A DNA stretch of 64,000 bases from Terriglobus albidus (GTDB taxonomy: Bacteria; Acidobacteriota; Terriglobia; Terriglobales; Acidobacteriaceae). The translations under genes were made by a program, and so were the position numbers. Below the pieces are notes generated by a model. It made no database searches, had not been told where the DNA came from, and saw only the letters and a list, made by a program, of their open reading frames with translations. Positions 56,547 through 57,878 of this stretch are shown piece after piece (positions within the stretch are counted from its first letter, which is position 1; each line of letters begins with the position of its first letter). The stretch is taken from positions 1,178,001 to 1,242,000 of the forward strand of contig NZ_JAGTAS010000058.1 of assembly GCF_025685425.1 (NCBI RefSeq). The letters are read 5' to 3'.

Positions 56547-56646
56547 ATCCTCACTGAAACCTACACACGAACGAAGTTCCTGCGACACAAATGGGGTATT
56601 CTACAAGCGAATCCAGAAGTACCAGCCGTTCTGTACCATCTTCTTC

Positions 56647-56769
56647 ATGACAGCTCATCACCCAATACCGCTCGCATCCGCTCAACCCTTCGTTGACGCA
56701 GCCGGCGTACGCATTGTGATTGGAATTCGGGTGATCTGCATCGCTATGGAGGCGAACGGGACGGCTTAG
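56647..56769 (+). CDS. Putative leader peptide rich in Ile/Val codons
   Basis: A 40-codon frame begins MTAHHPIPLASAQ and contains the block VRIVIGIRVICI (residues 21-32), in which 8 of 12 residues are isoleucine or valine. A terminator hairpin begins 20 bases after its stop and an IlvM-like ACT gene follows. That is the layout of ilv attenuator leader peptides (E. coli ilv leaders also begin MTA/MTT). The ribosome-binding site is weak, which lowers confidence. No other role for the frame is apparent. Confidence 0.5.
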   Translation: MTAHHPIPLASAQPFVDAAGVRIVIGIRVICIAMEANGTA

Positions 56770-56809
56770 AGCAACTCGACAAAGATTCGCAAAAGCCCCC
56801 TTCGCCTCC
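56748..56809 (+). promoter_or_regulatory. Candidate antiterminator pairing of the Ile/Val attenuator
   Basis: GGAGGCGAA (56748-56756), just after the Ile/Val codon block, is perfectly complementary to TTCGCCTCC (56801-56809), which forms the end of the left arm and the loop of the terminator. A ribosome stalled on the Ile/Val codons would leave this segment free to pair and so break the terminator. The competing 1:2 pairing was not clearly identified. Confidence 0.5.
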
Positions 56810-56830
56810 GGCGGAGGGGGCTTTTGCTTT
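56789..56830 (+). terminator. Attenuator terminator upstream of the ACT-domain gene
   Basis: An 18-bp stem with one G-U pair: GCAAAAGCCCCCTTCGCC, loop TCC, GGCGGAGGGGGCTTTTGC, then TTT. It stands 13 bases before the start of the ACT-domain gene, too close to the gene to be a simple end of the MATE transcript, which stopped 240 bases earlier. Confidence 0.75.
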
Positions 56831-57212: not shown

Positions 57213-57878
57213 ATGAAGCTACTCCTCACTTCTGCCGGTATCAGCAATACAAGTATCCAGGACGCGCTGGTTGACCTGATGGGTAAACCGATTGCCGAAG
57301 CGAGCGCCCTTTTCGTCCCAACCGCGATATATGCCTTGCCCAACGGGGCTGACATCGCGAGCAGGGTGATCCGCGGATCAATCGGCGATCCCTTTTGCGA
57401 TATGGGTTGGAAGTCATTCGGCGTGCTGGAGCTCACTGCCCTGCCCAGCATCAGGAAGGAACATTGGATCCCCTTATTGCAAGAGACCGACGTTCTGCTG
57501 GTTGGCGGCGGTGATTGCCAGTATCTGACGTACTGGATGAAACACTCAGGCCTGGCGGATCTTCTGCCATCACTGCTGCAGAAGACAGTCTACGCAGGGT
57601 TGAGCGCCGGGAGTATGGTGATGACCCGCTTCGGAACAACCTACGGCGGCCACACTCTTCCTGCCGATAGCGATAAATCGCTAGCATTGGTCGATATCGC
57701 GATTCATCCGCATCTGGATCACGAGTGGTTCCCGCAGAACTCCTTCGCGAACCTGGAAAAATTGGCCGCCACTCTACCTGTGCCGTCGTATGCGATTGAC
57801 GATCAAACCGCAATCAAAGTGATCGACGGCACGATCGAAGTCGTCTCCGAAGGCAACTGGAAGCTATTTACTCCCTGA
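57213..57878 (+). CDS. Peptidase S51 (dipeptidase E/cyanophycinase-like)
   Basis: The 221-residue class I glutamine amidotransferase-like hydrolase has the nucleophile serine in AGLSAGSMVM and the upstream VLLVGGGDCQYL strand, both typical of peptidase E (Asp-X dipeptidase). The conserved histidine may be that in IAIHPHLDHEWF. The start has GGAG about 7 bases upstream (ACCAGGAGACCTCATG). It follows the ACT-domain gene by 72 bases and may be co-transcribed, but a functional link is not evident. Confidence 0.85.
   Translation: MKLLLTSAGISNTSIQDALVDLMGKPIAEASALFVPTAIYALPNGADIASRVIRGSIGDPFCDMGWKSFGVLELTALPSIRKEHWIPLLQETDVLLVGGGDCQYLTYWMKHSGLADLLPSLLQKTVYAGLSAGSMVMTRFGTTYGGHTLPADSDKSLALVDIAIHPHLDHEWFPQNSFANLEKLAATLPVPSYAIDDQTAIKVIDGTIEVVSEGNWKLFTP

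Follow-up and report, generated by a model that had tools for sequence, protein, structure and literature searches.

A predicted isoleucine-sensing attenuator before a stand-alone AHAS small-subunit-like ACT protein in the Acidobacteriaceae

The best-known cases of attenuation by a leader peptide are found upstream of entire biosynthetic operons. In the 64,000-nt stretch of the Terriglobus albidus genome analysed here (the window; the genome is G000 below), a short frame with a run of isoleucine codons and a terminator hairpin stand instead before one small gene for an ACT protein, and the locus raises the question whether these parts form a transcription attenuator and, if so, what it would control. 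We found the parts of such a switch at 23 loci of the family, with a marked bias to isoleucine codons in the leaders and with RNA pairings that compete in silico. With a probability of about 0.85, we read the locus as a transcription attenuator of the ribosome-mediated type, responsive to charged tRNA-Ile, whose target is a divergent, stand-alone ACT protein resembling the small subunit of acetohydroxyacid synthase (AHAS), a reading that supports the attenuator interpretation first drawn from the sequence alone.

The leader, the terminator and the nearest relative

A sequence-only reading of the window had described a 40-codon frame with an Ile/Val block, an 18-bp terminator behind it and an ACT gene downstream, and all three are present (Table 1). 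The leader frame runs from an ATG at 56647 to a TAG at 56767-56769, the latter being the sole stop codon, in any frame, within the 45 nt 5' of the terminator. The U-rich CTTTTGCTTT overlaps the 3' end of the hairpin, which was also detected by an independent terminator scan, and upon folding, the whole 211-nt stretch reached a z of -3.5 against its own shuffles. No Rfam covariance model matched in the window at its gathering score. The same reading had pointed to a 9-base match, and GGAGGCGAA (56748-56756) is indeed exactly complementary to TTCGCCTCC (56801-56809); this real complementarity is, however, only the core of a larger duplex, in which regions 2 and 3 form 17 pairs with bulges on the leader side only, at a predicted -28.4 kcal/mol compared to -15.2 +/- 2.8 for shuffles, none of 300 being as low.

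Table 1. Features of the putative attenuator and its target gene, numbered from the first nucleotide of the window
Feature	Position	Strand	Description or basis
Leader peptide frame	56647..56769	+	40 codons and stop, MTAHHPIPLASAQPFVDAAGVRIVIGIRVICIAMEANGTA
Regulatory codon block VRIVIGIRVICI	56707..56742	+	5 Ile, 3 Val
Region 2: predicted antiterminator 5' strand, inside the last leader codons	56748..56767	+	pairing energy; unchanged in G002
Region 3: predicted antiterminator 3' strand, also terminator 5' arm and loop	56793..56809	+	predicted fold, pairing energy
Intrinsic terminator hairpin	56789..56827	+	18 pairs, 3-nt loop in predicted fold
Orphan ACT protein, 98 aa	56844..57140	+	by sequence, divergent relative of the AHAS small subunit

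A plain protein search over 19 genomes of the genus returned one clear ortholog of the ACT protein, in genome G002 at 69% identity, while G010 and G006 matched only weakly (E 0.014 and 0.07). The leader in G002 likewise has 40 codons and is 80% identical to that of the window. Among codons 1-30, 15 differ between the two, 7 of them synonymously; from codon 31 to the stop and for 10 bases beyond it, the DNA is identical. The terminator stem is altered on both sides, from CCCCC/GGGGG in the window to CACCC/GGGTGG. We looked here for a terminator that had persisted after loss of the frame, the codon block or the pairing segment, and found that G002 keeps all parts. The upstream gene, on the same strand in both genomes, encodes a MATE transporter in the window and a thiolase in G002, and because these genes differ, the leader, terminator and ACT gene have been kept as a unit. 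On the other side of the ACT gene, 72 nt behind it and on the same strand, the window holds a gene for a peptidase S51 family protein (57213-57878; 77 bits over 23.9), which could be co-transcribed with it and was not seen at the matching place in G002.

A sigma-70 promoter scan near the window leader gave no match. At 8 of the 23 loci by script, and at 13 of the 23 when start codons were picked by eye (window, 56634-56646; L079, L080, L082, L086, L088, L091, L100, L101 and L107-L110), the leader start is preceded by a -10-like hexamer (TATGCT, TACGAT; in the window TACCAT) that ends 7 nt upstream of it, and a Shine-Dalgarno-like motif precedes the leader at only 2 of the 23. The transcripts that carry the leader peptides may be leaderless; this idea is weakened by the 9 of the 23 loci where a promoter match is lacking and by the small number, 5, that singly attain p <=0.04.

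Recurrence of the arrangement and its isoleucine codons

We collected relatives with successive profiles. A two-sequence profile matched 16 of 399 genomes of the class, from which G000, G002 and G517 were kept; those in G100 and G196 were unrelated proteins by reading, and the other 11 lay at E 0.008-0.05. A three-sequence profile, which matched in 116 genomes, led to further small ACT proteins; here we read the loci that were unlike the 200-aa IlvN in frame or position, discarding G344:C5 and G692:C206, which looked unrelated, and G130, G117 and G604, which were canonical IlvN. A 22-sequence profile run over 398 genomes of the family then yielded 23 orphan ACT loci including the window, at 68-121 bits. 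Next below them, at 55 bits, came an ACT domain fused into a longer G000 protein, and from 49.5 bits down the frames were mostly of about 200 aa and were taken as canonical IlvN; by reading, 22 such loci and that of G000 were assigned to this class. The fused protein of G000 (G000:C50:93215-93454, L106) and one in G198 (L085) carry an ACT domain of the same group at the N terminus of a protein of about 300 aa, stand without a leader and were left out of the 23.

The orphans fall into four genera, with 5 in the window's genus (g1), 14 in g50, 3 in g78 and 1 in g80, and the gene is patchy, occurring in 5 of the 19 genomes of the window's genus. Oar-like proteins encoded at the loci suggest that these genomes are Acidobacteriota. 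A plain search with the G517 protein over 28 genomes of g80 found only G517 itself as a strong match. A search of 386 genomes of the phylum found none outside the family above 50.3 bits, the best of these being in G745, compared to 68-121 bits for the orphans; a genome contig collection, searched with the ACT protein and then with the pair alignment, gave no match, and a plasmid collection no relative. In all 23 genomes at least one further profile match was present, compatible with a separate IlvN, an identity that was checked by family models for G000. One of the 23 orphans is broken: in G344 (L111) the ACT frame is interrupted while the leader and terminator are still there, which suggests loss of the gene in that genome.

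The frame and the terminator recur, in quite different sequences, at the 21 family loci beyond the window and G002. At each of the 23 loci, the interval 15-30 nt before the hairpin contains a single stop codon, which closes the leader frame; this rule ignores isoleucine content and codons. The gap from leader stop to hairpin is 19-27 nt. A T-tailed hairpin stands between leader stop and ACT start at 23 of 23 loci, 15-65 nt before the ACT start, in a search that began at the leader stop and had the T-rich tail as a condition of its detection rule; in G666 we delimited the hairpin manually, as it had been overextended by the finder. The peptides themselves diverge widely. A leader peptide search of 200 family genomes gave 40 matches at E <=0.5, of which only G000 and G002 were strong (E <1e-10) and the other 38 (E 0.04-0.5) lay mostly in long open frames, and by eye the leaders form several groups with little in common beyond isoleucine codons near the stop.

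These isoleucine codons are strongly concentrated. Over the 23 loci they make up 101 of 458 (22%) of the last 20 leader codons, compared to about 11 of 438 (2.5%) of the earlier codons and a background of 4.5-5.7% in the long frames of these loci; the other two frames of the same leader stretch hold 0 and 3, and 2000 dinucleotide shuffles gave a mean of 29.7 and a maximum of 48. As the 23 loci are related, such totals do not count independent events. At least 3 isoleucine codons occur in 22 of the 23 leaders, the window having 5 and G517 having 2. Valine is not enriched, at 5.2% of the last leader codons versus 6.6-8.9% in the long frames, and reaches 3 codons only in G000, G002 and G222. Since isoleucine is enriched over the loci and valine is not, the shared signal is isoleucine, and of the Ile/Val signal read earlier from the window the first half holds for the whole set; the 3 valine codons of the window may add to the signal there. 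ATT accounts for 85 of the 101 leader isoleucine codons (84%), compared to 23-39% in the long frames of six sets of loci, in which ATC is the commoner isoleucine codon, and this preference may stem from slower decoding or weaker RNA structure. Upon scanning 273 kb (16 stretches, both strands) for at least 3 isoleucine codons among the last 20 together with a hairpin of <=-17 kcal/mol 15-28 nt after the stop, we obtained 12 hits, of which 9 were orphan ACT leaders and 3 were others; the signature missed the tenth orphan leader in the scanned sequence, that of G517 with its 2 isoleucine codons.

Competing structures and the proposed switch

Quantifying the pairing between the leader end and the terminator 5' arm plus loop, we found energies below the shuffle mean at 22 of the 23 loci (mean z -2.2). 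At 13 of the 23 the pairing was matched by at most 15 of 300 shuffles (p 0.05), and 10 of the 23 miss this level singly. G666 does not pass this test (z +0.81), and G344, with its broken ACT frame, gives a weak result (z -0.25); these two, together with the isoleucine-poor G517, are the exceptions among the further loci. The pairing sequences vary by lineage, with GGAGGCGAA opposite TTCGCCTCC in G000, TGGTGCGGG opposite CCCGCACCA in G222, and TGGGTG opposite CACCCA in G568.

We then compared folds for different states of the leader ribosome, and for the window competing terminator and antiterminator folds were predicted. With a ribosome stalled at the best-placed isoleucine codon, the RNA made so far formed the antiterminator (6-19 pairs) at all 23 loci, whereas a ribosome at the leader stop gave the terminator at all 23, and the E. 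coli ilvL leader, included as a control, behaved in the same way. The untranslated leader also formed the antiterminator (>=9 pairs) at 17 of the 23 loci, the window included, and in the E. coli control, so that the state folding does not tell a stalled ribosome from an absence of translation. Hence, the folding predicts two competing structures without proving that translation picks between them. A 1:2 protector hairpin was predicted for neither G000 nor G002 and, by the same rule, not for the E. coli control either. For the full-length RNA at equilibrium the terminator is favoured at 22 of the 23 loci (all but G552) and in the control; because equilibrium favours the terminator, the switch would have to be kinetic and decided during transcription.

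We suggest that the switch would operate as follows. When isoleucine is plentiful, the ribosome would reach the leader stop and cover region 2, the terminator would form, and transcription would stop short of the ACT gene. Under isoleucine shortage, the ribosome would stall in the isoleucine block and leave region 2 free to pair with the 5' arm of the terminator immediately upon its synthesis, which would keep the terminator from forming and let the ACT gene be transcribed. We infer that stalling and antitermination of this kind take place in the cell.

Several other readings of the hairpin and the frame have to be weighed against the attenuator. The hairpin might merely be the terminator of the upstream gene, the MATE transporter in the window, with a leader frame present by chance, as in both the window and G002 the upstream gene shares the strand of the leader and as T-tailed hairpins are common behind genes. 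However, the frame with its isoleucine block is kept at 80% identity in G002 behind an unrelated upstream gene, the bias and the stop-to-hairpin spacing extend over the 23 loci, and the upstream frame is divergent at G222, G008, G003 and G013, where the hairpin therefore cannot end an upstream transcript; we consider this explanation very improbable. We give similarly little credence to a leader that encodes a small protein working in its own right, of which the isoleucine block would be a part. Leader peptides acting in trans have been described, for example peTrpL in the available portion of one report (PMC7298713), but the scarce resemblance between leaders of different lineages, which is limited by eye to isoleucine codons near the stop, and the strong peptide match of only G000 and G002 among 200 family genomes argue against such a protein. 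Control could also act at translation, the stalled ribosome exposing or hiding the ribosome-binding site of the ACT gene, and a hairpin only 15-65 nt before the ACT start would suit this. The T-rich tails (a condition of detection; that of the window found also by the independent scan) and the alternative pairing tested, which engages the terminator 5' arm, point to transcription termination instead, and we deem translational control improbable.

The ACT protein, its target and known systems

By sequence comparison, the target of the switch is a divergent relative of AHAS small subunits. The window protein itself scores below every Pfam and NCBIfam cut-off (ACT_4, 12.7 of 27 bits; PRK11152, 12.4 of 68 bits) and shares 16% identity with E. 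coli IlvM and 14% with the IlvN of its own genome. As a family, the orphans align with that IlvN at an hhalign probability of 92% (E 5e-7) and with E. coli IlvM at 58% (E 1e-4), and the members of G517 and G443 match the IlvM model PRK11152 under its cut-off (E 1.2e-4 and 1.7e-4). The three g78 members have two domains, and all three pass the ALS_ss_C cut-off (35.4-37.1 vs 23.2 bits); two of them, scanned against PRK11895, matched at 3e-12 and 2e-9, under the cut-off of that model. Among the best PDB matches of the family profile were two small subunits, 6u9h of plant ALS (E 0.0017) and 2f1f of E. coli AHAS III (E 0.0024), with a repeat protein (E 0.0018) and the ACT domain of a GTP pyrophosphokinase (E 0.0044) scoring alike. 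The label "IlvM-like" given earlier to the window protein thus applies at a distant family level, through the alignment to IlvN and the two-domain members that are recognisable AHAS small subunits, whereas the window protein passes no cut-off. A 48-row tree separated all 22 orphans from the 23 IlvN by one branch (95/91), on few columns with long branches and an unsettled bootstrap. An AlphaFold2 model of the single window sequence was all-helical (pTM 0.31), uninformative and discarded.

The glycine of the IlvN motif KPGVLTR is replaced by R (19) or L (1) in 20 aligned orphans and by E in E. coli IlvM. According to the text available of one study (PMC5727371), AHAS II lacks the conserved glycine of the small subunit, and replacing this residue renders AHAS III insensitive to valine; this glycine is presumably that of the same column. 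We infer that the orphan protein has its effect on isoleucine synthesis, the simplest role being that of a regulatory subunit for the AHAS (IlvB) of the cell, and that, lacking the effector-binding glycine, it would exert no feedback control.

In G000, a search for the large-subunit locus placed ilvB-ilvN in a leu/ilv cluster (C28:636000-655000) about 587-589 kb from the window gene, so the earlier remark that the regulatory gene lies away from its catalytic partner holds for this genome. By reading, the cluster includes leuA, leuC, leuD and ilvD and stands behind a divergent LysR-type gene, and the other two TPP_enzyme_N loci of G000 are unlike AHAS large subunits. Reading of 7 orphan regions recognised no large-subunit gene beside the orphan. 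One of the 7, from G222, has ilvA (TIGR01127, 500.6 bits) directly adjoining or overlapping the two-domain orphan, which ties the predicted switch to isoleucine synthesis. Several g50 members stand behind leuB (by reading; one confirmed) and others behind rimO.

Such neighbours bear on a further reading, in which the attenuator is real and IlvB is not what the ACT protein regulates; its object would be IlvA (threonine deaminase) or transport, or the protein would itself be an isoleucine sensor. Many enzymes bind amino acids through ACT domains, the G222 member lies directly before the gene for the first isoleucine-specific enzyme, and the leuB neighbourhoods of g50 may be counted on the same side; the profile and domain evidence, by contrast, points first to AHAS small subunits, and ilvA adjoins the orphan in only 1 of 7 regions. 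We take another target to be a serious possibility, somewhat short of even odds. Returning to IlvB as the partner, a tentative and on balance doubtful extension is a starvation-induced subunit swap, in which an effector-blind small subunit, made when isoleucine is short, would replace the feedback-sensitive IlvN and free IlvB from inhibition. If this were true, control would act on the control subunit of the enzyme alone, with the amount of catalytic subunit constant, and the system allows a direct test of whether the cell retunes the enzyme by exchanging its small subunit. Overall, the predicted switch has been kept before a lone regulatory protein in four genera while its sequence was almost wholly rewritten, which indicates that making this protein upon isoleucine shortage matters.

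The mechanism is classic, and its target and bacterial group were not found in the literature searched; among the reports listed there, none described this attenuator and orphan ACT system, of which an earlier mention is possible. In the excerpts available, leader-peptide systems known in 2010 came from Proteobacteria and Actinobacteria, attenuators had been predicted in phyla such as Acidobacteria, almost none of them with associated functions (PMC2965389), and leader genes with a different role have been reported near structural genes in several groups including Acidobacteria (PMC4833913). The Corynebacterium ilvBNC attenuators (PMC10272879, PMC11857589) similarly place a leader frame or alternative hairpins before branched-chain synthesis genes, in a canonical operon of Actinobacteria, and the accessible text of these reports makes no mention of a stand-alone small subunit. 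Like the IlvM of AHAS II and the N-terminal part of IlvN/IlvH, the orphan has a single ACT domain, and like IlvM it has lost the KPGVLTR glycine; unlike either, it lacks a linked large subunit, and the window protein stays under all curated cut-offs. A close comparison is with the ilvL attenuator of the E. coli ilvXGMEDA operon (NC_000913.3, L105). There too, a leader with branched-chain codons, 4 ATT among its 5 isoleucine codons, is followed some 20 nt behind its stop by a strong terminator and then by an operon that includes a small-subunit gene, ilvM. Whereas the ilvL leader mixes isoleucine, valine and leucine and governs an entire biosynthetic operon, catalytic-subunit gene included, the leaders described here are enriched only in isoleucine and stand before a single orphan gene, followed once by ilvA.
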